A stretch of 49,438 nt of DNA from Arcicella aurantiaca (GTDB lineage: Bacteria > Bacteroidota > Bacteroidia > Cytophagales > Spirosomataceae): contig NZ_QGGO01000005.1 of assembly GCF_003148625.1 (NCBI RefSeq), positions 106,043 to 155,480 of the forward strand, given 5' to 3'. The stretch's first letter is position 1; every line of letters starts with the position of its first letter. Of the stretch, positions 58 through 49,438 are shown one piece after another. Under the pieces are notes generated by a model. The model searched no databases. It was not told where the DNA came from and worked only from the letters and a program-made list of their open reading frames with translations. Made by a program: the position numbers and the translations under genes.

Positions 58-101
58 GTTATTGATAACTGTTTACTGATAACTGTTAACTGCTCACTGA
101 A
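58..101. repeat. Heptamer repeat array, word xxxACTG
   Basis: Six consecutive seven-base words run GTTATTG, ATAACTG, TTTACTG, ATAACTG, TTAACTG, CTCACTG. The period is exactly seven. The array lies just downstream of the stop codon of the 1298-residue surface protein; only one arm is in the window. Confidence 0.7.
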
Positions 102-108
102 ACCCCGT

Positions 109-3100
109 TTACTTTCTAAGCGTTATTACTTTTCTGGTTTTTTCAAATCCATCTGTCGAAATTCTTACAACATAAGTATCACCATGATAATCAGGCAATT
201 GAACCTTTTTGAATGTGGTAAATTTATCGACTTTATATTCTGAAATTAGTCTTCCGTAAAGGTCATAAATCGTGATAGTTGCTCCGATTAAATCTTCAAG
301 AACTTCTACATTAATAACGCCGTCAGCACTTGGGTTAGGGAATATACTCATTCCATCAAAACTCTGGTCTCTTACATATTTCAAGACCGCAGAATTATTA
401 GAATAACATACTAATTTCCCAATTGACGCTGGAACATTTATATAAGTGATACTTGCTTGTACTTGATAGTCTCCGTCTTTTTTGGCTTTAATAATTCGGG
501 TCTTCAAATCCGCTTGTAAATCACCATTGTATCTCCAAATGTAACCTTCTTCATCTCCTACTCCTTGGGCATCTAATGAGAATGTCCCTGCTTGCTTAAT
601 AATTGTTGGCGTTGGATTTGCCCTTGAATCAACCGCAATCGGAGCAGATGCTAATGAAATACATCCATTTCCATCTTGAACTTTTGCAAAATAATTTCCT
701 GTTTTTGAAGCAAAAATAGACGTTTGGTCTTCCCCATTTCCTAAAGAATCGGTTGTAGTTCGCCACCAAAATGCTTTAAAAGGACTTGAAGAAACTAATC
801 TCACCCTCGAACCATCACAAAAAGTAGTTGCCCCATTGGGCGTTAATATTGGTGTTGTTGGTAATGGATTCACACGCACTTGAACTGCCTGTGATGGCTT
901 AGACAAACACCCAAAACTATTGATTGATTGTACCGTAACATTACCCGCAATATTGATGACAACATTGGGCGTTGTCGCTCCTGTACTCCATTTGAAGGAA
1001 AGGTTATTTCCTCCAACAGCACTTAATGTAACGTTTTTATCGGCACAAAATGGAATAGCTCCACGTATCGTAATGGTCGGAGATTCTGGCAATGGATTAA
1101 CTGTTGTTCTTATGGTATCTGATACGGCAACGGCTTTACAACCATTAGTATCTGTAACTGCAACGGCAATTGAACTGGCTTTTGTCCACGCAAATTGACG
1201 AGACATCGACTCTACGATAGTTTCTCCATCAACTATCCAACGATAAAAGTTTTTCGTTCCATTCGGTGTTGTACTTGGCGTACTTGATTGTACAATGGTA
1301 CTGTCGCCCTCACAAAAGATTTTTGATTTGACAATTGACACACTTGGCTTAGTTGGCAAAGCATTAACCGTTACTTTCAATGGTTTTGAATAAGGAGCAA
1401 AACAACCAAAAACATCTCGAACTTTTACGCTAAATGAACCAGAGGTACTTGTAAAAACTTCGGGTTCTGTTGATACTTCTTTTTGGGTACTCTCATCTCT
1501 CCAAGTATATTTAGATACATTACCATTGGCTACTAAAGCTTTCATCGTCACTCTACCTCCTTCACAAACGGTTGCCGTAATAGGAAATGGCAAAATACTC
1601 GCTGCTTGTGGAGCTTCACGGACTGTTACAACCACATTTTTAGACGTATCAGACAAACAACTTTTATCACTGATGGTACGTACATAAAATTTACCAACTT
1701 TTCCCAAAGAGGTTGTGGTAAAATATTGACTTGTGGTATCAATCAGAACAGATTTTTTATTGCTAAACTCCGTGTTATTCTTCGTGTTAATCCATTTATA
1801 CACACCATTGGGAGAATCTGTCGAAGTAAGCGTTACCGTTGAATCTGGACAAAAAGTAAATGGACCGTTTCCTGTAATGGTTGGTGTTGTTGGAAGTGGA
1901 TTTATCGTAACGGTTGTAACGTCAGAAGCATCTTTTGATTTACAAGCTTTAAAATTATTAGGGAAAGTAGAAACAGACTTTACACTCACTTTTATAAACT
2001 CTGTTTTTGTACTTCTGGTAGTAAGGGCTACATCAACTTGAGCATCCTTTGCATTATTATAATCCCATTCAAAAGTAGTTCCCGCAGTCGTTGAAGATGC
2101 TCTTAAAGTTGTAAAGTCTTTAAAACAAAACTCCGTCGGACGCAATGCTGTAATAATTGGTTTTGCAGGAAGAGGGTCAACTGCAACAACCGTTATTAAA
2201 GACGGCAACGAAGTACACGCAGGCGTTTGCGTATCTGTATAAGTTAAGCTAAAACTGCCTGCTCCATATACCGTGATATTTTGAGTATTTTTTCCATTAC
2301 TCCATAAATATGTTCCATTTCCTTTATTATTTGAACTCAAGACAACACTGTCAAGTTCGCAAATACGGTAAGCAGTTCCTTTATCAATAATTGGAATGGC
2401 AGGTCTTAAATTAACCGTTATTGTCAATGGATTTGAAGCTACCGAGTTACAACCATTGGCATCTAAAGCTTTAACAGTGTAAGTGTTAGTACTTCTTACA
2501 ATAATTCCATCAGCTCCCGTAGTTGTGGTATCACCTGTACTTCTACTCCAAACGTTTTTATTGGCAGTATAACTTGACGTTAATCTTACCGAATTTCCTT
2601 CACAAAAAATAGTTGCTCCGCCTGCCGTAATTGTTGGTTTGGCAGGAACTGTTGGAAATAGTTGTAATACCACAGGCGTTGTTGAATAATCGGATGAACA
2701 ACCCACTGAATTATCATAAGAAACGGTGTAGGAATAAGTTCCACCAGCCGTTACATCTGTTCCAATTACATCTAACAAATTAGAAGTTGTTGAACTTGTC
2801 ACAAGAACATTATCACGCTTCCAATTATATTTTGCTCCTCCGCTTGTTGCCGTAAGTGTTTTAAAATCTGTACCACAAATAATATTAGGAGAAAAACTTG
2901 CTGGCGAAATGGTAGGCGTTGCAGGTTTTGGAGAAACTTTCAAAGCTACGGGAGTTGATTCTGCCGAAACACAACCAACAGCGTTTTGAGACGTTACTGT
3001 ATAATTATAGGTATTTGGAATGGTTACATCTGTACCCGTAACTGTAATAGAATTGGTTGAACCTGTGATAGTCGTACCAGAACGTCTCCAAGTATATGAA

Positions 3101-4005
3101 GTTGCTCCAGCCGTAGCCGTTAAAACTTGCGTTGCTGTTCCACAAATCGGTGAAGAAACCGTTGCTGGTGAAATCGTTGGTGTAGTTGCTGCTGGCGACA
3201 ACGTTAATGAAACACCTGTTGTTGAAAATACTAAAGGACAACCTGCGGCATTAGCTAAAGCTGCAGTATAGCTGAATGTTCCTGTTGCATCTGTTCCTGT
3301 AACCAACAAACTATTTGCGGTATTTGATAAGGTTGTTGTACCACGTTTCCAAACATAAGACGCTCCTCCTCCACTTGCCGATAAAGTTTGGGTAGAAGTA
3401 CCACAAATTAACGTATTGGCATCTGCTGCTGAAACTGTGGGAGCAGCCAATGTTGGCGACATACTTAAAACAACTGGATTACTCGAAGCAGTACAACCAG
3501 AAGTAGCATTAGTAGTACTAACTGTATAACTATAACTTCCTGGTGTGCCTACATCTGAACCTGCCACTGAAATTGAAATGGTAGAACCACTAATGGTAGT
3601 TCCGTCTCTTTTCCATGTATAATTAGAAGCACTTGAAGAGGTCAACGTTTGTGTAGCTGAACCACAAATAGGGCTTGCTACCGACGATGGTGAGATAGTA
3701 GGAGTGGCAGGAACAATATTACTCGGAATTGTAGTACTCAATGAAGTTGTACCCGTAGCTTTCGTAATAACCACAGAATATGAACCACTCGGTTGGGTTA
3801 TCGAAGCAGTAGATGCGGTAAAAGTACCTGCTGCATTTCTCCAACTATATGCCGTAATACCCGTTGTTGGAGAAACTGATAATGTTTGAGTACCACTACC
3901 TGTACAAGTATAAGCACCGCCTACGATAGACTGCGACCATGAAAATTGTGTCGCTAATAAAGCGAAGCAGGTTAATAGAAGTATTTTTTTGAAAATGTTC
4001 ATCAT
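109..4005 (-). CDS. Multi-module secreted protein with T9SS sorting domain
   Basis: A 1298-residue cell-surface or secreted protein. The N-terminus (basic MMNIFKK, hydrophobic core, cleavage probably after WSQ) is a Sec signal peptide. The body holds about twelve Ig/PKD-like modules of 80-100 residues, each starting with a P-x-x-P-T-I linker, then a Cys in a context such as ICGTxTQxL or FCEGxxVxL, a Trp in the middle (YTWKRxG, YKW) and a second Cys (GC) before the next linker, so one disulfide per module is likely. A last module lacks the Cys pair. The C-terminal 80 residues (IFPNPSADG, TIYDLYGRLI, ending KVITLRK) are a type A T9SS sorting domain, which in this phylum directs export and surface attachment. 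The first four modules are much more alike than the rest, pointing to recent duplication. The binding partner is unknown; adhesin or carbohydrate-binding roles are both possible. A start one codon downstream (second ATG) is equally possible. Confidence 0.9.
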   Translation of the reverse strand: MMNIFKKILLLTCFALLATQFSWSQSIVGGAYTCTGSGTQTLSVSPTTGITAYSWRNAAGTFTASTASITQPSGSYSVVITKATGTTSLSTTIPSNIVPATPTISPSSVASPICGSATQTLTSSSASNYTWKRDGTTISGSTISISVAGSDVGTPGSYSYTVSTTNATSGCTASSNPVVLSMSPTLAAPTVSAADANTLICGTSTQTLSASGGGASYVWKRGTTTLSNTANSLLVTGTDATGTFSYTAALANAAGCPLVFSTTGVSLTLSPAATTPTISPATVSSPICGTATQVLTATAGATSYTWRRSGTTITGSTNSITVTGTDVTIPNTYNYTVTSQNAVGCVSAESTPVALKVSPKPATPTISPASFSPNIICGTDFKTLTATSGGAKYNWKRDNVLVTSSTTSNLLDVIGTDVTAGGTYSYTVSYDNSVGCSSDYSTTPVVLQLFPTVPAKPTITAGGATIFCEGNSVRLTSSYTANKNVWSRSTGDTTTTGADGIIVRSTNTYTVKALDANGCNSVASNPLTITVNLRPAIPIIDKGTAYRICELDSVVLSSNNKGNGTYLWSNGKNTQNITVYGAGSFSLTYTDTQTPACTSLPSLITVVAVDPLPAKPIITALRPTEFCFKDFTTLRASSTTAGTTFEWDYNNAKDAQVDVALTTRSTKTEFIKVSVKSVSTFPNNFKACKSKDASDVTTVTINPLPTTPTITGNGPFTFCPDSTVTLTSTDSPNGVYKWINTKNNTEFSNKKSVLIDTTSQYFTTTSLGKVGKFYVRTISDKSCLSDTSKNVVVTVREAPQAASILPFPITATVCEGGRVTMKALVANGNVSKYTWRDESTQKEVSTEPEVFTSTSGSFSVKVRDVFGCFAPYSKPLKVTVNALPTKPSVSIVKSKIFCEGDSTIVQSSTPSTTPNGTKNFYRWIVDGETIVESMSRQFAWTKASSIAVAVTDTNGCKAVAVSDTIRTTVNPLPESPTITIRGAIPFCADKNVTLSAVGGNNLSFKWSTGATTPNVVINIAGNVTVQSINSFGCLSKPSQAVQVRVNPLPTTPILTPNGATTFCDGSRVRLVSSSPFKAFWWRTTTDSLGNGEDQTSIFASKTGNYFAKVQDGNGCISLASAPIAVDSRANPTPTIIKQAGTFSLDAQGVGDEEGYIWRYNGDLQADLKTRIIKAKKDGDYQVQASITYINVPASIGKLVCYSNNSAVLKYVRDQSFDGMSIFPNPSADGVINVEVLEDLIGATITIYDLYGRLISEYKVDKFTTFKKVQLPDYHGDTYVVRISTDGFEKTRKVITLRK

Positions 4006-4125
4006 AATAAGGTATGCTAAAAAATAGTTGGCGGGATATTTTTTATTAGTTTCAGAATCTCTTGCTTTATTAACGAATTTTATAACGGTAAATTTTCATC
4101 TTCATTTATCATGACCGTCACCCAA

Positions 4126-4270
4126 AAAAGGGTTGTGTAAAAAGTATTATGTATTAAGTCCTAAGAATTTTCCACAAAATCAATGTAACCATTCAGATTA
4201 AAGTATCTCAACTTTATTCGGTCTGATTTTCTTAAAAATTAATACTTCGGACTCATTACACAACCCTTTT
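4126..4270. repeat. 145-bp element with 15-bp perfect terminal inverted repeats
   Basis: AAAAGGGTTGTGTAA at 4126-4140 is the exact reverse complement of 4256-4270. Inside are heptamer-like words GTATTAT, GTATTAA, GTCCTAA on the left and TTAATACTTCGGACT on the right, which also pair. It lies between the surface protein gene and obg, both read from the minus strand. No ORF is inside. It could be a MITE-like relic, a long hairpin terminating the obg transcript, or both. No clear target-site duplication is visible. Confidence 0.6.
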
Positions 4271-4295
4271 ATTCATATCTCTTTCCTTAAAATTG

Positions 4296-5333
4296 TTAGG
4301 CTTCATCATTTCCTGCCTCAATTTCTTGAACAGGTGGTTGTGCATTTTGTAATGTACTCCATAATAAATCCTTCAACTCTACAAGTCCTTGCTCCATAAT
4401 TGACGAGAAGAAAATATGTGATAATCCTTCTGGAATTTGGCTCAAAATTCGCTCACGATGCTCTTCTGTCTCTACCAAATCCATTTTAGAAATTGCCAAA
4501 ATTCTTTCCTTGTCTAACAACGCAGGATTATATTGTTTTAGCTCATTCAATAATACGTGGTATTCTTCATTGATGTCTTCTGCGGAAGCAGGCACTAAGA
4601 AGAGAAGAATTGAATTTCGCTCAATATGACGTAAAAATCTTGTTCCTAAGCCTTTTCCTTCTGCTGCACCTTCAATAATTCCGGGAATATCCGCCATTAC
4701 AAATGAACGAAATCCACGATAAGATACAACCCCTAAATTTGGAACGATTGTCGTAAATGGATAATCTGCAATTTCTGGTTTAGCTGCCGACATAACCGAC
4801 AAAAGCGTTGATTTCCCTGCATTCGGAAAACCTACCAAACCAACATCTGCTAATACTTTTAATTCTAAAATCACCCATTTATCCTCCCCTATTTCACCAG
4901 GTTGAGCATAATGTGGCGATTGATTTGTTGATGATTTGAAGTTGTAATTCCCTAAACCGCCACGTCCACCACGCAACAAGATAACTTCTTCATCTTGTTT
5001 GGTAACTTCGGCTAAAAAATCTCCCGTTTCTGGGTCTCTTACAATTGTTCCCAAAGGCACCTCAATAATGGCATCTGCTCCTTGCGAGCCAGAACGTCTT
5101 TGTCCTTCGCCACCATTTCCGTCTTTGGCAAAAATGTGTTTTTGATATTTAAGGTGTAATAATGTCCAGTGGTCTGTGGTTCCTCTAAGAACTACGTGAC
5201 CGCCACGTCCGCCATCGCCACCATCGGGACCACCCTTAGGCACGTGTTTTTCACGGCGAAAGTGACTTGAACCACTACCTCCATGACCAGAACGGACATT
5301 TATTTTAACGTAATCAATGAAATTTGAAGTCAT
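4296..5333 (-). CDS. obg: Obg-family GTPase (CgtA)
   Basis: A 345-residue ribosome-associated GTPase of the Obg/CgtA family, which acts in 50S subunit maturation and stringent-type control. Residues 1-158 form the glycine-rich Obg fold (repeated GGx[10 protein letters not shown]). The G domain follows: G1 GFPNAGKST at 168-176, G2 DYPFTT near 190-195, G3 DIPG at 215-218, G4 SKMD and a G5 SSI motif. The C-terminal extension is short and acidic. The open frame runs 21 codons further upstream, but those codons lie in the heptamer repeat and are not conserved-looking; the start at [11 protein letters not shown] matches the family N-terminus. It sits 90 bp downstream of adk in the same direction, so the two may share a transcript. 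Confidence 0.95.
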
Positions 5334-5345
5334 GTTTTTAATATA

Positions 5346-5422
5346 GGTATAAGGTATGAAGTATGAGGTATGAGGTATCGTTACAACAATACCCATACCT
5401 CATATCTCATACCTCATACCTC
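5346..5422. repeat. Two-arm heptamer array, word GTATGAG / CATACCT
   Basis: The left arm reads GTATAAG, GTATGAA, GTATGAG, GTATGAG; the right arm from about 5391 reads CATACCT, CATATCT, CATACCT, CATACCT. The arms are reverse complements of each other around a spacer of about 12 bp. The element fills the whole gap between obg and adk and ends 1 bp from the adk stop codon. Confidence 0.85.
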
Positions 5423-5423
5423 C

Positions 5424-5993: not shown

Positions 5994-6164
5994 TCGTTTT
6001 ACGATTATTTTAAAATAACAATTAATGTTTTGTTCTAAGAACCACAAAGTTACAATAAGCACTTGAAAATAAATAGAGAATTATGCTAAACCAAAATATC
6101 TATAAGCATTATGCACGCATACTATTTTGTATTAAATTTACAAAAAACAAGACAATTCAAAGGT

Positions 6165-6425
6165 TTCAATTGTGAATTGGTGAGTTATGATTTAGTGAAT
6201 TATTTGTCTGAACTATGATTCGTTAGATTTAGGGATTATAAGATTATCCATAAGAAGAATCCAAAAATCTATAAATCTGACAAATCTTAGTGCAAAACAA
6301 TAACTCACTAATTCACAACTTCCTAATTTGAAAAATCCAAAAATCTATAAATCTGACAAATCTTAGTGCAAAACAATAATTCACTAAATCACTAATTCAC
6401 AACTCACAATTAAACAAATCACAAC
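6165..6425. repeat. Heptamer-type arms flanking a 53-bp direct repeat
   Basis: The left arm (6165-6225) uses words such as AATTGTG, AATTGGTG, AGTTATG, ATTTAGTG, AATTATT; the right arm (about 6377-6425) uses the complements AATTCACT, AAATCACT, AATTCAC, AACTCAC, AATTAAAC, AAATCAC. Between them a 53-bp segment beginning AATCCAAAAATCTATAAATC is present twice, at 6258-6310 and 6334-6386, with one mismatch and an offset of 76 bp. The right arm ends about 8 bp before the start codon of the acyl-CoA dehydrogenase. The whole 370-bp gap between adk and that gene is this repeat structure plus AT-rich sequence. Confidence 0.8.
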
Positions 6426-6432
6426 TAAAAAC

Positions 6433-7674: not shown

Positions 7675-7686
7675 TTTTTTACAAAG

Positions 7687-7734
7687 TCAGTCGCTCGCAT
7701 CTTGCGAGTGACGACTATTTACAGGCTTCCAGCC
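7687..7734 (-). repeat. REP-like palindrome, family A (GTAAAT head)
   Basis: On the minus strand the element reads GTAAATAGTCGTC, then ACTCGCA, loop AGA, TGCGAG, CGACT. It is an imperfect palindrome with a GTAA head, the architecture of REP sequences that are mobilised by RAYT (TnpA-REP) proteins in other bacteria. A second small dyad GGCT-TCC-AGCC follows directly (7724-7734). The RAYT link is inference; no RAYT gene is in the window. Confidence 0.55.
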
Positions 7735-7768: not shown

Positions 7769-7860
7769 GGTTCAAGCGAGGACGCTTGAACCAGAAACGA
7801 GGACGCTTGAACCAGAAACGAGGACGCTTGAACCAGAAACGAGGACACTTGAACCAGAGA
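7769..7860. repeat. TTCAAGCG palindrome with four 21-bp tandem units
   Basis: It begins with a complete palindrome, GGTTCAAGCG-AGGA-CGCTTGAACC (7769-7792). From 7778 a 21-bp unit GAGGACGCTTGAACCAGAAA(C) is repeated at 7778, 7799, 7820 and, with an A for G change (GGACACTTG), at 7841. The same palindrome is found in six copies at 30384-30702. An ORF crosses it (repeated RGRLNQK) but has no other protein features. Confidence 0.85.
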
Positions 7861-11815: not shown

Positions 11816-11855
11816 GTTTTCAGGGGTTAGATTTTAGACCTTTTGTAATTAATAT

Positions 11856-12174
11856 GGCACGCTGATAATCAGATATTTATAGAAAATAAAGGTACAATTA
11901 ATTGTCCACGTATAAGATAAGAAGAACAAATTAATTGATATTATAAATATGTCGTCATATCGTAGGGGCGTATGCGATACCAATAATGTCAACTTAAGTT
12001 TTTAAATTATTCCAAAATTTAGATTATTCCAGTTTCAACGCAGGCAGGGTTTTTGAACCCTGCCTGCGTTAAGCGGATAAATTCCTTAGCGATACTCTCA
12101 TCAATCTATTCCAAATACTTAAATTAAAAAAATCTATAAAATCTGCGTTAGTATATCTGCGTCATCAGCGTGCC
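11856..12174. repeat. Inverted-repeat element filling the helicase / sensor kinase gap
   Basis: GGCACGCTGAT (11856-11866) and ATCAGCGTGCC (12164-12174) are perfect reverse complements 319 bp apart, and the similarity continues inward: AATCAGATATTTATAGA on the left against TCTATAAAATCTGCG words on the right, with the right arm carrying two extra words. Inside are a 15-bp-stem hairpin (12037-12070) and a partial dyad around CATATCGTAGGGGCGTATGC. No ORF of note. It appears to be an eroded two-arm array. Confidence 0.6.
12037..12070. repeat. 15-bp perfect hairpin, frame AAC...GTT, loop TTTG
   Basis: AACGCAGGCAGGGTT (12037-12051), loop TTTG, then AACCCTGCCTGCGTT (12056-12070). The stem is perfect. 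A second hairpin with the same outer bases, stem length and TTG loop but another sequence is at 45932-45964. There is no T tract, so it is not a typical terminator. Confidence 0.75.
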
Positions 12175-12204
12175 AAAAAACAAAACCACTATTAATCCAA
12201 AACA

Positions 12205-15138: not shown

Positions 15139-15139
15139 A

Positions 15140-15232
15140 ATGTATTAAGTATTAAGTCCAAAGTATTAAGAATACACTCAAGACTTAATACTTCGGACTT
15201 ACGACTTAATACATAAGACTTTGGACTCTAAA
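15140..15232. repeat. Two-arm heptamer array, word GTATTAA / GACTTAA
   Basis: Left words: GTATTAA, GTATTAA, GTCCAAA, GTATTAA. Right words: GACTTAA, TACTTCG, GACTTAC, GACTTAA, TACATAA, GACTTTG, GACTCTA. The period of seven is strict on the right side. The array begins right after the kinase stop codon and separates the kinase from its response regulator. Confidence 0.85.
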
Positions 15233-15962: not shown

Positions 15963-15963
15963 T

Positions 15964-16356
15964 TGATTGGTTATTGGTGGATTGGTTATCAGTGACTGGT
16001 GGATTGGTTGATTGGTTATTGGTTTATTGGTTATTGGTTTATTGGTTATTGGTTGATTGGTTATTGGTGGATTGGTTATCAGTGACTGGTAGATTGGTTA
16101 TTGGTGGATTGGTTATCAGTAACTGGTAGATTGGTTATTGGTAAGTTGACTAAATAGTACCCAATTTAGAGATTTGATGTTTTTTATATCAAGTTGATTA
16201 TCAGTAATAACCAATAAACTAATCCACCAATAAACCAATAACCAATCAACCAATAACCAATCAACCAATAAACCAATAACCAATAAACCAATAACCAATA
16301 AACCAATAACCAATCAACCAATAACCAATCAACCAATAACCAGTCAACCAATACAA
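15964..16356. repeat. Large two-arm heptamer array, word GTTATTG / AATAACC
   Basis: The left arm (15964-16140) consists of GTTATTG words alternating with 8-base words (GTGGATTG, GTTGATTG, GTTTATTG), with two interruptions GTTATCAGTGACTG. The right arm (16206-16356) holds about 19 words AATAACC, AATAAACC, AATCAACC, the complement of the left arm. The 65-bp centre (16141-16205) is unrelated AT-rich sequence. If single-stranded, the arms could form a stem of well over 100 bp. Short ORFs of WLLVIGLLVD type on the minus strand are translations of the repeat. The rest of the 470-bp gap has no gene. Confidence 0.92.
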
Positions 16357-19390: not shown

Positions 19391-19397
19391 ATAAGTC

Positions 19398-19470
19398 ATT
19401 AGGGGCTGGGTGTTCCATAATCTTGATTTTCAAGCTAATGGCAATACTAAATACTAATCCCAACTCCTAA
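19398..19470. repeat. Short heptamer array
   Basis: TTAGGGGCTGGGTG on the left faces AATACTA, AATACTA, ATCCCAA, CTCCTAA on the right; the second arm is strictly periodic. It separates the convergent LytTR gene and the alpha/beta hydrolase gene. Confidence 0.5.
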
Positions 19471-19473
19471 TTA

Positions 19474-27961: not shown

Positions 27962-27965
27962 TTTC

Positions 27966-28080
27966 TTAAGTTATAAATTATGAGATATGAATTATGAGTT
28001 GTGAGTTTAAATTATATATGAATATAGCCAAGTAACAAGGCGAACAGTAATTCATAATTTATAACTCATAATTCATCATT
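27966..28080. repeat. Two-arm heptamer array, word AATTATG / AATTCAT
   Basis: Left arm: AGTTATA, AATTATG, AGATATG, AATTATG, AGTTGTG. Right arm: AATTCAT, AATTTAT, AACTCAT, AATTCAT. Complementary arms around a spacer of about 45 bp. It fills the gap between the subunit-3 and GMC genes; on the minus strand the left arm ends 4 bp before the GMC start codon. Confidence 0.85.
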
Positions 28081-28082
28081 AT

Positions 28083-30339: not shown

Positions 30340-30383
30340 ATTGTTAGATGATAGAGGTTAGAGAACAGATGATCTCTCTGTCT

Positions 30384-30731
30384 GGTTCAAGCGTCCTCGC
30401 TTGAACCCTTGTAATTAACGATTCCTCTCTCTCTGTCTGGTTCAAGCGTCCTCGCTTGAACCCTTGTAATTACCTCTCTGGTTCAAGCGTCCTCGCTTGA
30501 ACCCTTGTATTTACCTTTCTGGTTCAAGCGTCCTCGCTTGAACCCCTGTAATGAACTAATCCTTGCCCCTTTCCATTGCATACGCACGAGTGGTTCAAGC
30601 GAGGACACTTGAACCAGACAGAGTTTGAACCCTTGTAATTAACTAATCCTTGCCCCTTTCCATTGCATACGCACGAGTGGTTCAAGCGTGGACGCTTGAA
30701 CCAGAAAGAAGGACACTTGAACCAGAAAGAA
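30384..30731. repeat. Cluster of six TTCAAGCG palindromes with an 87-bp duplication
   Basis: Copies of GGTTCAAGCG-NNNN-CGCTTGAACC lie at 30384-30407, 30439-30462, 30480-30503, 30521-30544, 30592-30615 (one arm ACTTG) and 30679-30702, plus a half copy at 30711. The centre is TCCT in the first four, AGGA or TGGA in the last two. Most copies are followed by CCTTGTAATTA. From about 30538 a segment with CTAATCCTTGCCCC and CATACGCACGAG is tandemly duplicated with an offset of 87 bp. Spacer lengths differ (18 to 63 bp) and no cas gene is near, so it is not a CRISPR array. The 430-bp gap has no gene. Confidence 0.9.
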
Positions 30732-34407: not shown

Positions 34408-34409
34408 AA

Positions 34410-34437
34410 CGTTGGCTGTCAGCTATCAGCTTTCGGC
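34410..34437. repeat. Short heptamer array, word AGCTATC
   Basis: Words GGCTGTC, AGCTATC, AGCTTTC, GGCTAAA with strict period seven between rhaM and the isomerase gene. Only one arm is present. Confidence 0.6.
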
Positions 34438-34454
34438 TAAAAACTAACAAAAAA

Positions 34455-39980: not shown

Positions 39981-39983
39981 TCC

Positions 39984-40036
39984 GTAACACAGACTTCAGT
40001 CTGTCTATATGACGAACAGACTGAAGTCTGTGTTAC
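39984..40036. repeat. Inverted pair of REP-like elements (family C)
   Basis: Two 21-bp arms, GTAACACAGACTTCAGTCTG(T) at 39984-40004 and its perfect reverse complement at 40016-40036, face each other across CTATATGACGA. Each arm is itself a palindrome (ACAGACT-TC-AGTCTGT) behind a GTAA head. The pair sits between nuoL and nuoM, starting 3 bp after the nuoL stop and ending 13 bp before the nuoM start. Confidence 0.85.
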
Positions 40037-40049
40037 GCATATTTCAAAA

Positions 40050-42724: not shown

Positions 42725-42797
42725 CGTGTTGTTTTGTAAAAGGATAGTTCAAAAATACTAATAAAAGTAGAATGCAGTAAGTTTATGCAGAAAAATA

Positions 42798-44294
42798 ATG
42801 ACTAATTTTTTATCACTACCCGACCAACTCGCTCAAATACTCGATAGTCTTCAAGCACTTTCACCCGAAGTATTTCTGTCATTATCATTTTTAATAATGA
42901 TTTTGATTGATTTATTCTTGCATCAAGATTTAAAAAATAAGCAACAATTAGTGTCAAATACACAGCAGGCAAATCATGTATTGCTTGGTATTTCTGTAAT
43001 TACTCTACTCATTGTCTTGAATCAAATTGTAGAGCAATTTTACACCACAAATGATTCATTCTTATTTGGGAAGACGCTAATTTTAGACTCAAAAGCAATC
43101 TTATTCAAATTCTTAATTATTCTATCAGCAATTTTCGTGCTTTTTCATGTCATTGTCACAAAAAAAGATTTTATCGGCGAATTTTACCCTATTTTAATCA
43201 GTATGGTGGTCGGACTTTGCCTAATGACCATGTCCGTAAATCTATTAATGATTTACCTTTCCATCGAAATGGTTTCTATTGCTTCTTATATGCTCACGGC
43301 TATTGATAAAAACCGAAAAGGGATTGAAGGAAGTTTAAAATATGTACTTTTTGGGGCAACGTCTTCGGCAATTATGCTTTATGGAATGTCATTATTATAT
43401 GGTATGACAGGAACGCTTGACATTGCTTCACCTGATTTTTCAAGAGGAATCTCACAAATTGACGAAGTTGCTTCAACGGTTGCTATTGTATTGACAATCA
43501 GTGGATTTCTTTTTAAAATTTCTGCAACACCATTCCATATTTGGACGCCCGATATTTATGAATCAGCCCCGACACCGATTGTGGCTTTCTTCTCGGTTGC
43601 TCCTAAAATTGCAGGTTTTTTAGTAGCAATTCGTTTTTATTCAGCCATTCCAAACAACCTCCAAACAATTACGGCAGTGTTGTCGATAGCAAGTATTACT
43701 TTCGGAAATTTCTCTGCACTTTGGCAAAATAATGCTAAAAGATTATTGGCGTATTCAACCATTGCCCATGCTGGTTTTATGTTGATTGGCTTGGTAACAA
43801 TGTCTCAATTAGGATTAACAAGTCTTGTTTTTTATTTGGTAACGGTACTTTTTACCAATTTGGCGGCATTTCTTTTGATTGATTTTTATGAAAGTAAACA
43901 TCAATCGGTCAATATAGAAAACTTGAAAGGACTTGGGAGAGTCAATCCTTTTTATGGCATCATGATGTTGATTGTGATGATTTCTTTGGCAGGGTTGCCT
44001 CCTATGGCTGGTTTCTTTGCGAAGTTAAATATATTCTCGGCACTTTGGGAAACATATCAGTCAACCAATAAACCGATTTTGCTTTGGTTATTCATTTTCG
44101 GATTAATGAATACGGCTATTGCTCTTTTCTTCTATTTGAAGATTCCATTCTTTATGTTTTTTAAAGAATCGACTGAAAACCAAACATTTGAGTTAAATCC
44201 TAAACAATATTTTTTGGCAATTATATTGATTTTACCCATTCTGATTTTATTCTTCAAAGCAGATTGGTTAATGGAAATTGTGAGTTTTTTATAG
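42798..44294 (+). CDS. nuoN: NADH-quinone oxidoreductase subunit N
   Basis: 498 residues, about 14 membrane helices. YLSIEMVSIASYMLTAIDKNRKGIEGSLKYVLFGATSSAIMLYGMSLLYG, KISATPFHIWTPDIYESAPTPIVAFFSVAPKIAGF and LAYSTIAHAGFMLIGL mark NuoN. The gene starts 73 bp from the divergent kinase and therefore must have a promoter in that gap, apart from nuoLM. Confidence 0.96.
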   Translation: MTNFLSLPDQLAQILDSLQALSPEVFLSLSFLIMILIDLFLHQDLKNKQQLVSNTQQANHVLLGISVITLLIVLNQIVEQFYTTNDSFLFGKTLILDSKAILFKFLIILSAIFVLFHVIVTKKDFIGEFYPILISMVVGLCLMTMSVNLLMIYLSIEMVSIASYMLTAIDKNRKGIEGSLKYVLFGATSSAIMLYGMSLLYGMTGTLDIASPDFSRGISQIDEVASTVAIVLTISGFLFKISATPFHIWTPDIYESAPTPIVAFFSVAPKIAGFLVAIRFYSAIPNNLQTITAVLSIASITFGNFSALWQNNAKRLLAYSTIAHAGFMLIGLVTMSQLGLTSLVFYLVTVLFTNLAAFLLIDFYESKHQSVNIENLKGLGRVNPFYGIMMLIVMISLAGLPPMAGFFAKLNIFSALWETYQSTNKPILLWLFIFGLMNTAIALFFYLKIPFFMFFKESTENQTFELNPKQYFLAIILILPILILFFKADWLMEIVSFL

Positions 44295-44296
44295 GA

Positions 44297-44461
44297 AATA
44301 GGTTTTAGGGGTTAGGCTTTAGGGGTTAGTTATTTGTACACAAAGATTATTGACTTAGACAAGAAGTGTACTCATTACAATTGTGACTTTTAATCGTAAT
44401 TATAAATACAAATAATTATGAAAGATATTCTAAAACCTAAAACCTAACCATTAATACCTCC
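44297..44461. repeat. Two-arm heptamer array, word GGGGTTA / TAAAACC
   Basis: Left arm: GGAAATA, GGTTTTA, GGGGTTA, GGCTTTA, GGGGTTA. Right arm (44428-44461): TAAAACC, TAAAACC, TAACCAT, TAATACC. The spacer of about 90 bp is AT-rich. The array separates the convergent nuoN and phosphoribosyltransferase genes and ends 4 bp before the latter's stop codon. Confidence 0.8.
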
Positions 44462-44464
44462 AAT

Positions 44465-44977
44465 TTACCTCAAATAAACGCCCATTGTTTCTTCATCGTC
44501 AAGTACCACAGAAACATAGTCGTTAAGCGTTGTTGAGAGTTGGTACCCTACATAATCCGCTAAAATCGGAAATCTGCGAAAATTTCTATCTACCATAACT
44601 GCTACTTGAATTCTTTTTACAGGAATACTCAAAAACGGAGAAAGGCTATAAGCAAAAGTTCTTCCTGTGTTTAGTACGTCATCTACAACAACGATGGTTT
44701 TACGTTCCAGAAAACGTTCGTCACAATCAAATTCTACTGGACTTTCATAAGTTACGTCTTTGTCCACGTCAATTAAAACAGCGGTTGCTTCGATACTGGA
44801 AATTTCATTTAATGTAATCGCCAATTTTTTAGCCAAGGAATGTCCTTGCCCTTTTATTCCAGCAATAACAATTTCTGTTTCTTCAAAGTTATTTTCATAA
44901 ATCTCGAAAGCAATTCTTCTGATTTTCTGTAAAACTTGATGATGGTTGAGTATTTGGTTATCGGTCAATTGAGTCAT
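44465..44977 (-). CDS. Phosphoribosyltransferase (PyrR-like)
   Basis: 170 residues. The PRPP-binding motif is VVVDDVLNTGRT at about 96-107; GIKGQGHSLAKKLA gives the PPi loop. Similar short type I phosphoribosyltransferases include PyrR (pyrimidine regulator and uracil phosphoribosyltransferase) and hypoxanthine enzymes; the DYVGYQLSTTL segment fits the PyrR group. No pyrimidine genes are near, so the symbol is left open. Confidence 0.85.
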   Translation of the reverse strand: MTQLTDNQILNHHQVLQKIRRIAFEIYENNFEETEIVIAGIKGQGHSLAKKLAITLNEISSIEATAVLIDVDKDVTYESPVEFDCDERFLERKTIVVVDDVLNTGRTFAYSLSPFLSIPVKRIQVAVMVDRNFRRFPILADYVGYQLSTTLNDYVSVVLDDEETMGVYLR

Positions 44978-45187
44978 GGAAATTGATTTTATTACAAGAT
45001 ATTTTGCTTGTTGTACTTTCTGTAAAATTAAGTATTCAGAATCAAAAAAAATGATTCTGTGGCGATTTATGAAATAAATTCTAAAAAATGAGTTCCAAAT
45101 TGCAGTGATTTATAGATTAAGAATGTAAAAAATGACCTCCAAAACTATAAATTATTATCTCTTAACTATTAATTATGAACAATTCTT

Positions 45188-45195
45188 TACCTTTG
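45188..45195 (+). promoter_or_regulatory. -7 box of the YcxB-like gene
   Basis: TACCTTTG matches TAnnTTTG, 32 bp before the ATG at 45228. The 250-bp divergent gap also has an 8-bp hairpin CAGAATCA/TGATTCTG at 45037-45059. Confidence 0.5.
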
Positions 45196-45227
45196 CAGTC
45201 CAATTTATCAAAAAATATCATTAAAAA

Positions 45228-45788
45228 ATGGCAAAAGGATTCTCACAAGGACAACAGAGACGAGTACAACAAGCAGTACCAAGCAATCCGTTGGCGATTA
45301 AAACCAAGAAATTTGCATTAGAAAAAAATAAATTTATTGGCTTAAATATGATGCAATTAATTAGAAATCAATGGTATTGGGGTTTTGTACCTTTGGCTTT
45401 GATTTTAATTAACGCAGGTTTAAATATTTCAAAAGTATATCCTAACTATTGGATTTATGTAATTACAGTCTTGGGAGCCATTTTATATATCGCTTTTTGG
45501 GCAGTTCAATTTACGGGAGTTACGCAATTAGAGCAATACAAGCAATTATTCCAAAAATATCGTTACGAAATTGATAGCCGTCAGATTTTGATGAAAATTT
45601 CAGATACAGAAGGTGGCGTTATCAAGTGGGACATGATTAAAACTGCTCGTAAAGACAAAGAAGCTTATATTTTAGACATGGGTTCGTATCAATTTATTTA
45701 TCTACCATTTACGGTTTTCAATAATGATAATGATAAGAAATTGATGGACAGAATCTTGAAAGATAAAGGATTTATTGCTGCTGAATAA
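45228..45788 (+). CDS. YcxB-like membrane protein
   Basis: 186 residues. A basic N-terminus, two membrane helices at about 51-67 (WGFVPLALILINAGLNI) and 75-95 (WIYVITVLGAILYIAFWAV), then a cytosolic domain with RYEIDSRQILMKI, GGVIKWDMIKTARKDKEAYILD and YLPFTVF, which resembles the YcxB-like domain of unknown function. Stand-alone gene with promoter and terminator. Confidence 0.75.
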   Translation: MAKGFSQGQQRRVQQAVPSNPLAIKTKKFALEKNKFIGLNMMQLIRNQWYWGFVPLALILINAGLNISKVYPNYWIYVITVLGAILYIAFWAVQFTGVTQLEQYKQLFQKYRYEIDSRQILMKISDTEGGVIKWDMIKTARKDKEAYILDMGSYQFIYLPFTVFNNDNDKKLMDRILKDKGFIAAE

Positions 45789-45802
45789 TTTTCAGAACTT
45801 AT

Positions 45803-45840
45803 AAAAAAAGCCTCTCAATTTGATTGAGAGGCTTTTTTAT
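45803..45840 (+). terminator. Terminator of the YcxB-like gene
   Basis: AAAAAGCCTCTCAAT, loop TTG, ATTGAGAGGCTTTTTT: a perfect stem with T tract. Confidence 0.95.
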
Positions 45841-45931
45841 GTTAGTTTCAAGTACTAACCTTATACCAATTTTAAAGATTTGATGCGTACTTTACGGAAT
45901 TCCTTTTTAAATTAGTATTACTCTTTGGAGG

Positions 45932-45964
45932 AACTTCCCGAAAGTTTTGAACTTTCGGGAAGTT
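45932..45964. repeat. 15-bp perfect hairpin, frame AAC...GTT, loop TTG
   Basis: AACTTCCCGAAAGTT (45932-45946), TTG, AACTTTCGGGAAGTT (45950-45964). Same design as 12037-12070 but with another stem sequence. It lies after the YcxB-like gene and before the end of the convergent protease gene. The rest of the 247-bp gap has no gene. Confidence 0.75.
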
Positions 45965-46035
45965 AAACCCCAAACATCCAAATTTCCATTCTTATTTTTA
46001 AAGTGCCAAAGTAGAACTAAGTATTATGTAAGAAG

Positions 46036-47733
46036 TTACTTCTTAATCGAGTGAGAAATTGTTTCTACCAATTCTCCACGAGCCATTCTTTCTGCTTTGT
46101 CAAAATGTTTTAATGATTTTTGGAAAGTATCGTCAAACGGTGACATTATCTGAAAATACTCATTGTTTAATCCATCGTTAACTTTACGTTGCCAAACGCT
46201 ACGAGCAATGTACGCTTTAATTTGAGCCTTAATATATGGCATTGAACGCTCGTAATCTCTCGCACGCATTTTTACATTGGCTTGTTTAGCCAATCTTTGC
46301 ATATCTATCAACATGGCATCATTGACTACAAAAAACTTATTAAAATCTTTAAAAGTAAGTTTCTCTAAAGATTTCATGTTGTCATTGGCATAGTTTAAGG
46401 CAAATTCACGAATGATATTTTTCCCCCATAAATCACTTAGATATTTGGTAAAATAAGTAGTGTCACGTGCCACAAAAACATCTGGCGTGATACCACCACC
46501 ACCATAAACTGTTCTGCCACCAAGTGTTTTATATTTCAATTTATCATTAAATTTGATACTATCTGCATTAAAGAACTCACCACTTTTCAAGCGTTTTTCA
46601 TAGTCTTTTTCGTAATCTTCTTCACGCCCCAAAACATAAGGTTTTTGAATACTACGTCCACTTGGCGTATAATATCTTGAAATGGTCAATCGCAATTCTG
46701 AACCATCTTGCAAACTTACAGGCATTTGTACTAACCCTTTTCCAAATGAGCGTCTTCCCACGATTAATGCACGGTCATTATCTTGTAAAGCACCCGCTAC
46801 AATTTCAGCAGCAGAGGCACTATTTTCGTCCACAATTACCATCACTGCTCCCTTCTCAAAAATACCATCTTTTTTGGTAAAAGTTTGAGTATCGTATTTT
46901 GAGCCTTTTCCGTCCGTGTAAACAATCATACGTTCACCTGCCAAAAGTTCATCAACCATTTTTTCCGCACGGTCTTTATATCCTCCTGGGTTTCCACGCA
47001 AATCAAGCATCAAACGCTTTAAGCCTTGTCCTTTTAGGGTCGTCAAAATATTTCTAAATTCATCGAAGGTAGATTCTGTAAATCTATCCACTTTGATATA
47101 TCCTGTTTGTGGGTCAACCATATAACCAGCCGTCACCGAATAAGATGGTATTCTGTCACGAATAACAGTAAACTTCTTAATTCCTTTTTCACCATTACGT
47201 AAAATCTCCAACTGAACTTCTGTTCCTCTTGTACCACGAAGTTTACTAAAAATAAGGCTTTGTGTAACTTTTGGACCTGTTAATGAAATGCCGTCCGCTT
47301 TAATCAAACGGTCGCCACTTTTAATACCTACTGACTCAGAAGGACCACCCGCCATAGCATTTACCACATAAACGGTATCACTGAAAATATTAAATTCAAC
47401 TCCAATCCCATCAAAACCAGATTCTAATTGAGAACGAGCCGAAGCCACTTCATCGGTTGAAAAATACGAAGTATGAGGGTCAAGTTTTTCCAACGTTTTT
47501 CTGATTGAAAATTCTACCAATGAATCTGTATTGACAGAATCGACGTAACTATTTTCAATCAATGACAATACCTCACGATATTTATTAAAACCCTTTAAAA
47601 CGTTATTCATTCGGGTTTGTCCACCAAAGAAATTTGCACCCAACAAAATCCCTCCCACTAATGCGATGGCTATCCAAATGGGTATTTTCACGATGGTTGA
47701 ATTATTCTTGATGGGTTCTTGTCCTTTTTGCAT
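46036..47733 (-). CDS. C-terminal processing protease, S41 family
   Basis: 565 residues. One N-terminal membrane anchor (IPIWIAIALVGGILLGANFF), a region before the PDZ with the YVDSVNTDSLVE segment, a PDZ domain at about 105-190, and the S41 catalytic core: LMLDLRGNPGG, Ser in VDENSASAAE (probably Ser307) and Lys332 in RRSFGKGLVQ. The C-terminal 130 residues are a helical domain. Such CtpA/Prc enzymes trim periplasmic and outer-membrane proteins. A -33/-7 promoter is present upstream. Confidence 0.94.
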   Translation of the reverse strand: MQKGQEPIKNNSTIVKIPIWIAIALVGGILLGANFFGGQTRMNNVLKGFNKYREVLSLIENSYVDSVNTDSLVEFSIRKTLEKLDPHTSYFSTDEVASARSQLESGFDGIGVEFNIFSDTVYVVNAMAGGPSESVGIKSGDRLIKADGISLTGPKVTQSLIFSKLRGTRGTEVQLEILRNGEKGIKKFTVIRDRIPSYSVTAGYMVDPQTGYIKVDRFTESTFDEFRNILTTLKGQGLKRLMLDLRGNPGGYKDRAEKMVDELLAGERMIVYTDGKGSKYDTQTFTKKDGIFEKGAVMVIVDENSASAAEIVAGALQDNDRALIVGRRSFGKGLVQMPVSLQDGSELRLTISRYYTPSGRSIQKPYVLGREEDYEKDYEKRLKSGEFFNADSIKFNDKLKYKTLGGRTVYGGGGITPDVFVARDTTYFTKYLSDLWGKNIIREFALNYANDNMKSLEKLTFKDFNKFFVVNDAMLIDMQRLAKQANVKMRARDYERSMPYIKAQIKAYIARSVWQRKVNDGLNNEYFQIMSPFDDTFQKSLKHFDKAERMARGELVETISHSIKK

Positions 47734-47765
47734 ATTGCTTAATCCTAATTTTTAGAAACTGATAT

Positions 47766-47795
47766 TAAAGTTACGAAAAACTGAAATCTTGCCAA
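47766..47795 (-). promoter_or_regulatory. Promoter of the C-terminal protease gene
   Basis: On the minus strand TTGG (near 47792-47795) is followed 18 bp later by TAACTTTA (47766-47773), a one-base variant of TAnnTTTG, with the family's normal spacing. Confidence 0.5.
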
Positions 47796-47806
47796 TGTTT
47801 TTGGTG

Positions 47807-47814
47807 TAACTTTG
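47807..47814 (+). promoter_or_regulatory. -7 box for ruvX
   Basis: TAACTTTG matches TAnnTTTG, 125 bp before the ruvX ATG. The heptamer array would then be part of the 5' untranslated region. Confidence 0.4.
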
Positions 47815-47820
47815 TTTTTT

Positions 47821-47935
47821 TATTAGGTATTAGGGGTTAGGATTTAGGAATTAAGTCAAAAAACACTTTAGAAAGAGTCAAACACTTCTCGTTTTTTAAA
47901 GCCCTAAATCCTAATTCCCAACCCCCAAACCCTAA
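47821..47935. repeat. Two-arm heptamer array, word GTTAGGA / ATCCTAA
   Basis: Left arm (47821-47855): ATTAGGT, ATTAGGG, GTTAGGA, TTTAGGA, ATTAAGT. Right arm (47901-47935): GCCCTAA, ATCCTAA, TTCCCAA, CCCCCAA, ACCCTAA. Period exactly seven. The right arm ends 4 bp before the ruvX start codon. Confidence 0.9.
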
Positions 47936-47939
47936 TAAA

Positions 47940-48356
47940 ATGTCCAGAATATTAGCCATAGATTACGGGACGAAGCGAGTAGGTTTAGCCGTTACCGACC
48001 CTTTAAAAATTATAGCATCAGCTCTGGATACCATTCATAGCAAAGATGTACTTAATTATTTGAAAGAGTACGTTGAAAAAGAAGAAGTTGAGGCTTTTGT
48101 AGTGGGTATGCCCGTAAATTTGGACGGAGAAGATACCAACAACACGCCTCATGTAAAAGGTTTTGTGAAGACTTTGAAAAAAACATTCCCTGACATTCCT
48201 GTACATTTGCACGACGAACGGTTTACGTCATCAATGGCTCTTCAAGCTATGATTACGGGAGGTTTCTCAAAAAAAGACCGTCGTGAAAAAGGAAATATTG
48301 ACAAAATTTCAGCAGTAATAATTTTACAATCCTTCATGGAAAAAGAGGGAATTTAA
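47940..48356 (+). CDS. ruvX: Holliday junction resolvase-like protein RuvX (YqgF)
   Basis: 138 residues, the usual length. The RNase H-like fold starts [18 protein letters not shown] with Asp8; [12 protein letters not shown] and [10 protein letters not shown] carry further active-site positions, and [13 protein letters not shown] has the C-terminal Asp. In E. coli the protein acts in 16S rRNA 5'-end maturation; a nuclease role is expected here. Just upstream is a heptamer array. Confidence 0.95.
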
Positions 48357-48360
48357 TTGT

Positions 48361-48470
48361 TTGAGATTTTGGATTTACGATTGCGGATTTTATCCTAAAA
48401 TTCATGAAATTTTAAGATAAATTTGCGACCCAAAATCCGAAATCTTCAATCGAAAATCCGAAATCAAACA
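48361..48470. repeat. Two-arm heptamer array, word GATTTAC / CGAAATC
   Basis: Left arm: GGATTTAC, GATTGCG, GATTTTA. Right arm (48430-48466): CAAAATC, CGAAATC, TTCAATC, GAAAATC, CGAAATC. The centre TCCTAAAATTCATGAAATTTTA is a further dyad. The right arm ends 5 bp before the aroE start codon. Confidence 0.85.
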
Positions 48471-48471
48471 A

Positions 48472-49218
48472 ATGAATATTTACGGTTTAATTGGTTATCC
48501 GCTTGGGCATTCCTTTTCAAAAGGATATTTTACAGAGAAGTTTTCAAATATGGGTATCTCAGATGCCAACGTGTATGAGAAATTTGAGATAGAAAATATC
48601 AACGACTTACCTGCTTTACTACAAAATCCTGACTTGAAAGGATTGAACGTTACCATTCCACACAAACAAAATGTATTTCCTTTTTTAGATGCTGTTGATG
48701 AAGCTGCTTTGAAAATCGGGGCTGTCAATACTATCAAAATTATGCCTGATGGTTCGACAAAGGGTTTTAATACTGATTATTGGGGTTTTCGTTGGACTTT
48801 AGAAAAATGGAGTGATTTTCAAGAAATCAAACCTAAAAAAGCTCTGATTTTAGGAAAAGGTGGAGCGGCAAAAGCTATTATTCAAGCCTTGCAAGACTTA
48901 GGATTAGAAACACAATACGTTTCTCGTAGAAAAGAAGAAGATACTATTACTTACGACGAATTGACGGAAACTGTCATGCAAGAACATCTTTTTATCGTAA
49001 ATACCACGCCTTTGGGAATGTTCCCGAAAGTGGATACTTTTCCAGAAATTCCTTATCAATTACTGACCGATAAACATTTATTGTACGACATTGTGTATAA
49101 CCCATTAGAAACTGTTTTCTTGAAAAAAGGCTTAGAACACGGAGCAAAAGGTGTACATTTTGGTTTGGAAATGCTACACGGACAAGCTGAAAAAGCTTGG
49201 GAAATTTGGCAAAGTTGA
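48472..49218 (+). CDS. aroE: Shikimate dehydrogenase
   Basis: 248 residues. Substrate-binding motifs GYPLGHSFSKGYF and NVTIPHK with the catalytic Lys65, then GFNTDYWGF with Asp102, the NADP(H) loop LGKGGAAKAII and VSRRKEED, and the C-terminal FGLEMLHGQAEKAWEIW. Catalyses NADPH-dependent reduction of 3-dehydroshikimate in aromatic amino-acid synthesis. It is slightly shorter than E. coli AroE but complete. Confidence 0.95.
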   Translation: MNIYGLIGYPLGHSFSKGYFTEKFSNMGISDANVYEKFEIENINDLPALLQNPDLKGLNVTIPHKQNVFPFLDAVDEAALKIGAVNTIKIMPDGSTKGFNTDYWGFRWTLEKWSDFQEIKPKKALILGKGGAAKAIIQALQDLGLETQYVSRRKEEDTITYDELTETVMQEHLFIVNTTPLGMFPKVDTFPEIPYQLLTDKHLLYDIVYNPLETVFLKKGLEHGAKGVHFGLEMLHGQAEKAWEIWQS

Positions 49219-49438
49219 GTTTGGTTATTGGGGATTGGTTACTTGTTATTGGTTATTGGGAATTGGTTATTGGGAATTGGTTACTCGTTATTGGTTACTT
49301 GTTATTGGTTATTGGGAATTGGTTATTGGGAATTGGTTACTCGTTATTGGTTATTGAAAATTGGTAGTATAAGAGTATTCACTAACTGGATTACCAATAA
49401 CCAATCCCCGATTACCAATAACCAATCCCCGATTACCA
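49219..49438. repeat. Large heptamer array, word GTTATTG / AATAACC (cut by window end)
   Basis: From the aroE stop codon onward about 20 consecutive words: GTTATTG, GGGATTG, GTTACTT, GTTATTG, GGAATTG, GTTACTC and so on, strictly seven bases each, to about 49363. After an AT-rich spacer, the opposite arm begins (AATAACC, AATCCCC, GATTACC) and runs off the window. A higher-order repeat of about 84 bp is visible in the left arm (GTTACTT ... GTTACTC blocks). Confidence 0.92.

Follow-up and report, generated by a model that had tools for sequence, protein, structure and literature searches.

Arrays of many different 7-base words, often paired as inverted arms, in the intergenic gaps of Arcicella aurantiaca

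Introduction

Many of the intergenic gaps in one stretch of the Arcicella aurantiaca genome are built of tandem 7-base words, and the word often differs from one gap to the next. This stretch, hereafter the window, covers 49,438 nucleotides (nt) of contig NZ_QGGO01000005.1 (G000:C5:106043-155480). The question it raises is how a single period can go together with so many sequences. An initial annotation of the window proposed one rule applied to many independent words, generated either by replication slippage or by an enzyme with a 7-nt step. We find that the heptamer arrays are real, and that they are a many-word version of the heptamer arrays already described in Xanthomonas, Nostoc, Beggiatoaceae and a few Bacteroidetes. 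As to how they are made, we lean slightly toward slippage with in-register homogenisation, so that the arrays would be heptamer and octamer simple sequence repeats that occupy and rebuild hairpin-prone intergenic gaps.

The genome of A. aurantiaca (G000; 5.93 Mb in 70 contigs) was sampled as stretches totalling 834 kb, or 14% of the genome, which hold 536 gaps with 101.5 kb of sequence. The genus set consists of 8 genomes, G000 included, to which sequence stretches of relatives were added, and the comparisons of array layout and loops cover 17 sampled genomes. Genes were called by a simple open reading frame (ORF) rule in our own script, thus gap edges and start codons are approximate. The names of the genes in the window (adk, obg, ruvX and others) rest on Pfam.

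Results

The 7-base period is widespread in the sampled part of the genome. Using a lag-segment score threshold of 12 and shuffled gaps as the control, 35 of the 536 gaps carry an array at lag 7, compared to 0.4 in shuffles. The same holds for the multiples of this lag (lag 14, 35 gaps against 0.2; lag 21, 20 gaps against 0.1), and there is a weaker signal at lag 8, with 10 gaps against 0.0. Lags 3, 4, 5, 6 and 9 gave 0, 1, 0, 0 and 0 gaps in the same sample. This agrees with the genome-wide lag-7 excess that the initial annotation had expected. In the first 438 kb (278 gaps) the intergenic autocorrelation is 0.333 at lag 7, above the values for lag 8 (0.312) and for lags 6 and 9 (0.295), and the coding sequence of this part has no lag-7 peak (0.264, against 0.254-0.283 at lags 5, 6 and 8). 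The arrays of G000 thus have two features of bacterial heptameric simple sequence repeats, which are a tandem 7-nt unit in excess over other unit lengths and a mostly intergenic location. Under a looser rule 68 of the 536 gaps count as array gaps, with no clear preference for a gene orientation (38/321 co-directional, 15/116 divergent and 15/99 convergent gaps).

The words are many but they are not independent. There are 33 distinct consensus words among 48 loci, and the commonest words of G000, AGTTATG and AGTTATC, each occur at 4 of 45 loci and contain no G-tract. TAACTGA is the consensus at 5 of 45 G000 loci, and no single preferred heptamer was found. However, 21 pairs among the 48 loci have the identical consensus word up to rotation, compared to 3.2 +- 1.9 when the letters of the words are permuted, and 105 pairs are within one mismatch of each other compared to 41 +- 6. 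Since identical words at separate loci exceed this composition-preserving null, the loci share a vocabulary, and the idea that nearly every locus has an independent word of its own does not hold despite the 33 words. This sharing can be seen in the window, where TTAGG-type words occur at 44295 and 47821 (and more weakly at 19391), while two loci, 15963 and 49219, have GTTATTG. The short tandemly repeated repetitive (STRR) sequences of heterocystous cyanobacteria are tandem heptamers as well, and the one STRR word that we compared, CCCCAGT, has no match among the compared consensus words.

What is not shared is the loop between the arms. When 41 loops of at least 15 nt, from 59 two-arm cases, were compared to all sampled gaps, none matched between two heptamer loci of one genome. 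The 18 non-self match lines are of four kinds: the G000 and G005 orthologues at window position 27962; one G005 gap, whose loop contains the dispersed CGCAGATG palindrome; the long loop of L002:1809, parts of which turn up again in array-free gaps; and a single weak match, 26 nt long, between genera. Unshared loops speak against the copying of whole elements, and we rejected the dispersal of whole elements on this ground. The number of words and the absence of shared loops bear out the view that this is not one dispersed repeat but one rule on many sequences. They also set the arrays apart from repetitive extragenic palindromes and bacterial interspersed mosaic elements (REP/BIME), where the same sequence is found at many loci.

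Each of the twelve loci that the initial annotation listed in the window was compared to 1000 dinucleotide shuffles of its own stretch, using the best score at lags 7, 8, 14 and 15. The loci are:

59..100: heptamer array of TTACTGATAACTGTT type, seen within the left edge of the window and next to the 3' end of the minus-strand gene 109-4005; p 0.001
5346..5423: near-perfect hairpin in the adk-obg gap, with GTATGAG on the left (5346-5378) and CATACCT on the right (5389-5422) of a loop; p 0.001, fold z -10.1
6160..6432: 7- and 8-base words, GTGAATT / TTAGTGAA on the left and AATTCACT on the right, between adk and an acyl-CoA dehydrogenase gene; p 0.01
15139..15230: GTATTAA in the left arm, ACTTAATACTT in the right; p 0.003
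15963..16353: GTTATTG/GGTTTATT 7+8 composite left arm (15963-16142), loop and AACCAATAACCAATC right arm (16209-16353); p 0.001
19391..19473: weak, with TTAGGGG in a short left arm and AATACTA in the right; p 0.007; in G005 this gap measures 6 nt
27962..28082: AATTATGAG in the left arm, CATAATTCAT in the right; p 0.001; common to G005; the C-rich palindrome that G004 and G006 have here is unrelated
34408..34454: single arm of TCAGCTATCAGCTTTCGGCT; p 0.002; near-identical in G005
44295..44464: TTAGGGG in the left arm, CTAAAAC in the right; p 0.001
47821..47939: TTAGG in the left arm and CCTAAA in the right, directly upstream of the ruvX start codon; p 0.001
48357..48471: gap between ruvX and a shikimate dehydrogenase gene, with GATTTCG-type left and right arms; p 0.16 at lags 7, 8, 14 and 15, lag-21 score 13.5, fold z -5.6
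49219..49438: TTGGTTATTGGGAA in the left arm (49221-49365), ACCAATAACCAATCCCC in the right, which the end of the window truncates; p 0.001

Eleven of the twelve therefore stand at p <= 0.01, with p from 0.046 to 1.0 at the control lags 5, 6, 10 and 11, and the locus at 48361 does not pass at the four lags but has its period at lag 21. The presence of 8-base words beside the 7-base ones is confirmed; the period is 7 and sometimes 8 and is applied to many intergenic words, and composite 14- and 15-base units are present among the tandem repeats of the window.

Several gaps of the window hold other palindromes and repeats. A different palindromic repeat, GGTTCAAGCGAGGACGCTTGAACCAGA, is found at 7777-7858 and 30380-30730; in one of these it is in tandem with a 21-base period, and in the other it forms units of 41 and 87 bases. 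A CGCAGATGACGCAGA...CTGCGTCATCTGCG palindrome at 11816-12204 and in the orthologous gaps recurs at several gaps, including the one upstream of ruvX in G004 and G005, at the site of the TTAGG heptamer hairpin of G000. The gap at 45789-46035 has the palindrome AACTTCCCGAAAGTTTTGAACTTTCGGGAAGTT, and a 37-base stretch of this gap is identical in the L002:1809 gap. At 39981-40049 there is a palindrome ACACAGACTTCAGTCTGT in G000, where the same gap in G005 and G006 has a GTCATTGCGAG...CAATGACA palindrome. Finally, at 4006-4295 and in its orthologues, downstream of obg, several species have a hairpin around ACAAGGCATTGCCTTGT.

The initial annotation overlooked that most two-arm arrays are inverted pairs. 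In the usual layout a G-rich, C-poor arm is followed by a loop and then by the same word as its reverse complement, as is already apparent from the tandem repeats of the window (AGGTATG then ATACCTC, and GTTATTG then AACCAAT). This order, with the G-rich arm in front, holds for 58 of 66 two-arm gaps (46/52 in the genus and 12/14 in other genera), which is the convergent layout of Xanthomonas-type repeats with the G-rich strand facing inward; G022 is an exception, as neither of its 2 two-arm gaps follows this order. All eight exceptions were kept in the count. By eye, L019:1562 and L014:3744 obey the rule for their own word and L011:1550 is a true exception, neither L075:11900 nor an AT-only case in L099 is a heptamer array, and L106:2622 and the two G022 gaps are ambiguous. 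The 58 single-arm gaps have no strong preference for a side (15 plus-left, 15 plus-right, 19 minus-right and 9 minus-left). A cruder count by gap halves gives 32 G-rich against 7 on the left and 38 C-rich against 12 on the right in G000, and only 5 against 4 and 7 against 6 in G006.

The loops sit in the middle of the gaps and the arms near the gene edges. The outer edge of the arm is at most 5 nt from a called ORF for 35 of 59 left and 38 of 59 right arms, where arm spans may overrun and ORF starts are approximate. For the 42 of the 59 two-arm gaps in which both arms have at least 28 nt, we asked if the arms share word order beyond word content, which they do in 9 gaps at p < 0.05 (mean z 1.2). 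One arm may thus be copied from the other on occasion, or pairing may be under selection, but this is not a general rule.

The nearest relative of A. aurantiaca in our set is G005, with flanks about 90% identical. Out of 99 queried gaps 75 could be paired, and an array is found in both species at 13, in G000 only at 11, in G005 only at 6 and in neither at 45 (Fisher p 1.7e-4). The clearest change is at L063:13867, where four consecutive copies of GAGTAAA in G000 stand against GAGTTAT (one of them GAGCTAT) in G005, with register, loop and flanks kept. At L063:12014 a mixed array has TTAGG running into TATGAGG in one phase, the array at L073:10030 is identical in the two species, and at L018:5623 and L018:8968 only one of the two has an array. 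This pattern may be read as evolution in place plus gain and loss. Run between species, the comparison of words at orthologous gaps that the initial annotation had proposed shows that the word can change, in one gap by a replacement that preserves the register. Among the alignments of the four G000 query stretches to G005, L018:3-9007 matches G005:C163:3568-12596 as an unbroken 9-kb block that is 94% identical and includes much of the arrays; the other blocks are shorter and 79-95% identical.

Two gaps of the window show the change of word in the wider genus. The adk-obg gap has GTATGAG in G000, TTAGGG-like words in G005 and G006, TTCGATG-like words in G004, and TTTGTGAT-like words in both G003 and G007; in G001 it is a plain hairpin. 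It folds in all 7 paired genus members, at z <= -4 on at least one strand (plus strand -2.2 to -10.7), the weakest plus-strand fold being that of G003 (-2.2, with -4.1 on the other strand). The gap between ruvX and the shikimate dehydrogenase gene has GATTTCG in G000, TTCGATG in G004 and G005 and TTGTTGAA in G006; G003 and G001 lack an array there. Beyond this the arrays are patchy across relatives. A lag-7 array was found in 9/117 sampled gaps of G006, 2/94 of G001, 0/14 of G003, 7/56 of G022, 4/50 of G009, 2/53 of G010, 1/50 of G011 and 1/61 of G028, and in none of the sampled gaps of G008, G012, G018, G033 and G037.

The adk-obg gap raised the expectation that array gaps are mutational hot spots or conserved slots, and both nulls ran contrary to it. 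In the distant genus members, those other than G005, arrays are found at 7 of 24 gaps that have an array in G000 and at 2 of 15 that do not (p 0.44), and strong inverted repeats at 13 of 24 and 7 of 15 (p 0.75). General slot conservation in the genus is thus not significant. We also rejected a mutational hot spot: in the comparison of G000 with G005 array gaps are no more diverged than others, so no hot spot is shown.

Discussion

Slippage with in-register homogenisation would work as follows. The polymerase may stall at a short inverted repeat that lies at the boundary of a gene, and a 7- to 8-base unit would be duplicated by slippage. The copies of the word within an arm would then be homogenised in register, so that a new word can sweep the arm with the 7-base phase kept; this step is supported by one clear gap and by the mixed arrays. 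Pairing between the arms, through template switching or selection for the hairpin, would keep the second arm approximately the reverse complement of the first, which is partly supported. Template switching has been described as a way in which the arms of inverted repeats become homogenised (PMC8604942). The arms often abut stop or start codons, and a coding constraint may be what ends them there. The outcome would be a single architecture with interchangeable words. The period, the composite units, the mixed words and the change of word in place would all follow from slippage with a 7- to 8-nt step and homogenisation in register. Between the two generators that the initial annotation offered, slippage is the better one, given the change at L063:13867 with its loop and flanks kept. 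Any role of the arrays as hairpin spacers or weak terminators would be secondary and is unproven.

Several of our results weigh against this reading. A clear in-register change of word is known from a single gap, and in that gap, L063:13867, the two arms bear different words. The arms in general are loosely coupled, with no significant sharing of order in 33 of the 42 gaps. Array gaps do not diverge faster than others, with an identity of 0.77 between G000 and G005 in 28 array gaps compared to 0.66 in 42 other gaps (p 0.37; 5 of the 75 were dropped as longer than 450). Plain slippage also does not predict the order of the arms, which becomes apparent when counting perfect stems of at least 8, leaving out those with fewer than 2 G or C in the 5' arm. 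In the array gaps of the genus the 5' arm is G-rich in 73 stems, C-rich in 21 and equal in 11, compared to 156 G-rich and 159 C-rich in gaps without arrays. Outside the genus the gaps without arrays also lean toward a G-rich 5' arm (84 against 61; array gaps 14 against 3). In convergent gaps, which have no start codon, the G-C skew in the 30 nt after the stop is +0.56 with arrays and +0.15 without.

Part of the arm order may come from the composition around genes. The G-poor leaders before start codons are also found in gaps without arrays (skew -0.31), and the arm order on the start-codon side fits these genus-wide leaders. The skew after stops is +0.47 and +0.56 in array gaps compared to +0.07 to +0.15 in gaps without arrays, so the C-poor arm on the stop-codon side is a property of the arrays themselves, even in convergent gaps, and simple slippage does not explain it. 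We rejected translation-start composition as the full cause of the arm order because the skew after stops is specific to arrays.

Apart from slippage, the gaps could be hairpin slots selected independently of sequence, for termination, protection of mRNA ends or insulation, in which repeat arms are favoured as they still pair after a 7-base shift. We consider this possible but doubtful. In its favor, the adk-obg gap folds in 7/7 paired genus members with four word types and one plain hairpin, and among the family adk-obg loci, taken from 30 of 60 matched genomes, 20 fold at z < -3 (an array is found in 6 of the 30, 5 of these among the 20, and 4 loci were too short to score); others of the 20 are plain hairpins, several of them resembling intrinsic terminators. 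The gap at 45789-46035 is likewise terminator-like in G000, G005, G003, G007 and G001, with a GTTATTG-type palindrome in G006 (by eye, its array score of 7 being under the 7.5 cut-off). However, the adk-obg gap was chosen after inspection and alone proves little, because 49% of 70 other G000 gaps fold equally well (z < -3), only a little below the 54% of 50 array gaps. The lack of significant conservation in the distant genus members also speaks against slots. A terminating function in particular is hard to see. Convergent gaps are not clearly preferred and arrays are present in divergent ones, and a T-tract after or an A-tract before the stem accompanies only 15/120 stems in array gaps of the genus compared to 104/487 in gaps without arrays. 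The terminator-like hairpins in the genus gaps without arrays have a C-rich 5' arm in 57 cases and a G-rich one in 32, the reverse of the heptamer hairpins (24 against 21 in other genera). As T- and A-tracts, arm polarity and gene orientation do not fit, we rejected intrinsic terminators.

The recurrence of identical words beyond the composition null could instead reflect word families that spread by copying between loci, by ectopic conversion or template switching, giving each genome a vocabulary of its own. Identical pairs are indeed found within genomes (G000 23/990, G006 3/91, G022 8/45) against fewer between them (G000 with G006 8/630, G000 with G022 0/450). As a comparison of raw counts, the contrast is small for G000 and G006, and the few G009 loci do not show it (0/6 pairs). 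Since the loops are unshared, words alone and not elements would have to move, and we regard this spread as improbable. Least probable is a dedicated enzyme that writes the arms, such as a reverse transcriptase or a telomerase-like extender of 3' ends acting on both ends of a break with the G/T-rich 3' ends facing. A G-rich arm followed by a C-rich arm of the same word is what 3'-end extension on both sides should give, and this is the order in 58/66 gaps. On the other hand, loops in the middle of the gap with arms near the gene edges are opposite to the layout that a break within an old gap would produce, and the in-register change of word requires no such enzyme. RVT_1, the sole class searched, has no match at E <= 0.001 in five of the eight genus genomes, G001, G003, G004, G005 and G007 (86-99% complete), and all of these except G003 nonetheless have lag-7 arrays in the sampled stretches, as in the 99% complete G001 with its 2/94 gaps. 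Matches are found in 15 of 39 genomes, including 3/8 in the genus (G000, G002 and G006), with several of the others incomplete. On these counts we rejected a reverse transcriptase as the obligate writer, and the proposed enzyme with a 7-nt step finds no backing here.

A known but little-studied slippage repeat fits better than a new enzyme. The G-rich heptamers GGGAATC of Xanthomonas and GGGGA(C/T)T of Nostoc are, in the sections of Rehm 2015 (PMC4692102) used here, mostly intergenic, of 2-26 units in one strain, and widely variable in length and sequence between relatives; they have the polarity seen here at gene edges and form 70 and 75 convergent pairs in two Xanthomonas, with only few in Nostoc. 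Our arrays resemble them in the 7-nt unit, the intergenic location, the convergent pairs and the variation between relatives. They differ in that those genomes, searched by word, have one G-rich word family each, where we see 33 words in 48 loci, many without G-tracts. A single G-tract word able to form a G-quadruplex is thus not a feature of G000. The TAACTGA direct repeats are reported, in the portions of MacGregor 2015 (PMC4679880) that we cite, from Beggiatoaceae, Cyanobacteria and five Bacteroidetes. One of these is Flexibacter litoralis, now Bernardetia litoralis, a member of the Cytophagales, so the statement in the initial annotation that no description of this kind was known for that order needs correction. 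According to these portions the best-studied genome has one word in 169 direct sets, mostly upstream of start codons, and one indirect repeat; two close Cyanothece strains differ mostly by 7-nt indels; and the author suggests translational regulation. The likeness to our arrays lies in the intergenic location, the TAACTGA loci of G000 and a host in the Cytophagales; the TAACTGA repeats, however, are one word in direct sets, whereas the arrays of G000 have many words and inverted arms. Long simple sequence repeats with an excess of 7 nt, for which polymerase slippage was proposed, go back to Mrazek 2007 as cited in PMC4679880 and PMC4692102, and share with our arrays both the excess and the proposal; convergent arms and a change of word at orthologous gaps are unmentioned in the citing passages. 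Among the titles listed by searches of the open-access literature we found no other description of a many-word convergent heptamer system in Bacteroidota, and a paper on triplex repeats (PMC4666352) contributed nothing.

A more general possibility, to which we give little credence at present, is that C-poor, G/T-rich heptamers of any word are laid 5' to 3' from both flanking genes toward the gap center. If true, a polarised process directed by 3' ends would write and rewrite spacer DNA, through strand-biased slippage at hairpins or through telomere-like extension followed by joining, and it would be common to Cytophagales, Xanthomonas and perhaps Nostoc with differing words. The order of the arms at the 3' ends of genes is the clue that points beyond plain slippage. 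This genus provides the many-word case, in which word, period, arm order and location are separable, and the slippage proposal can thus be tested by comparing strains.

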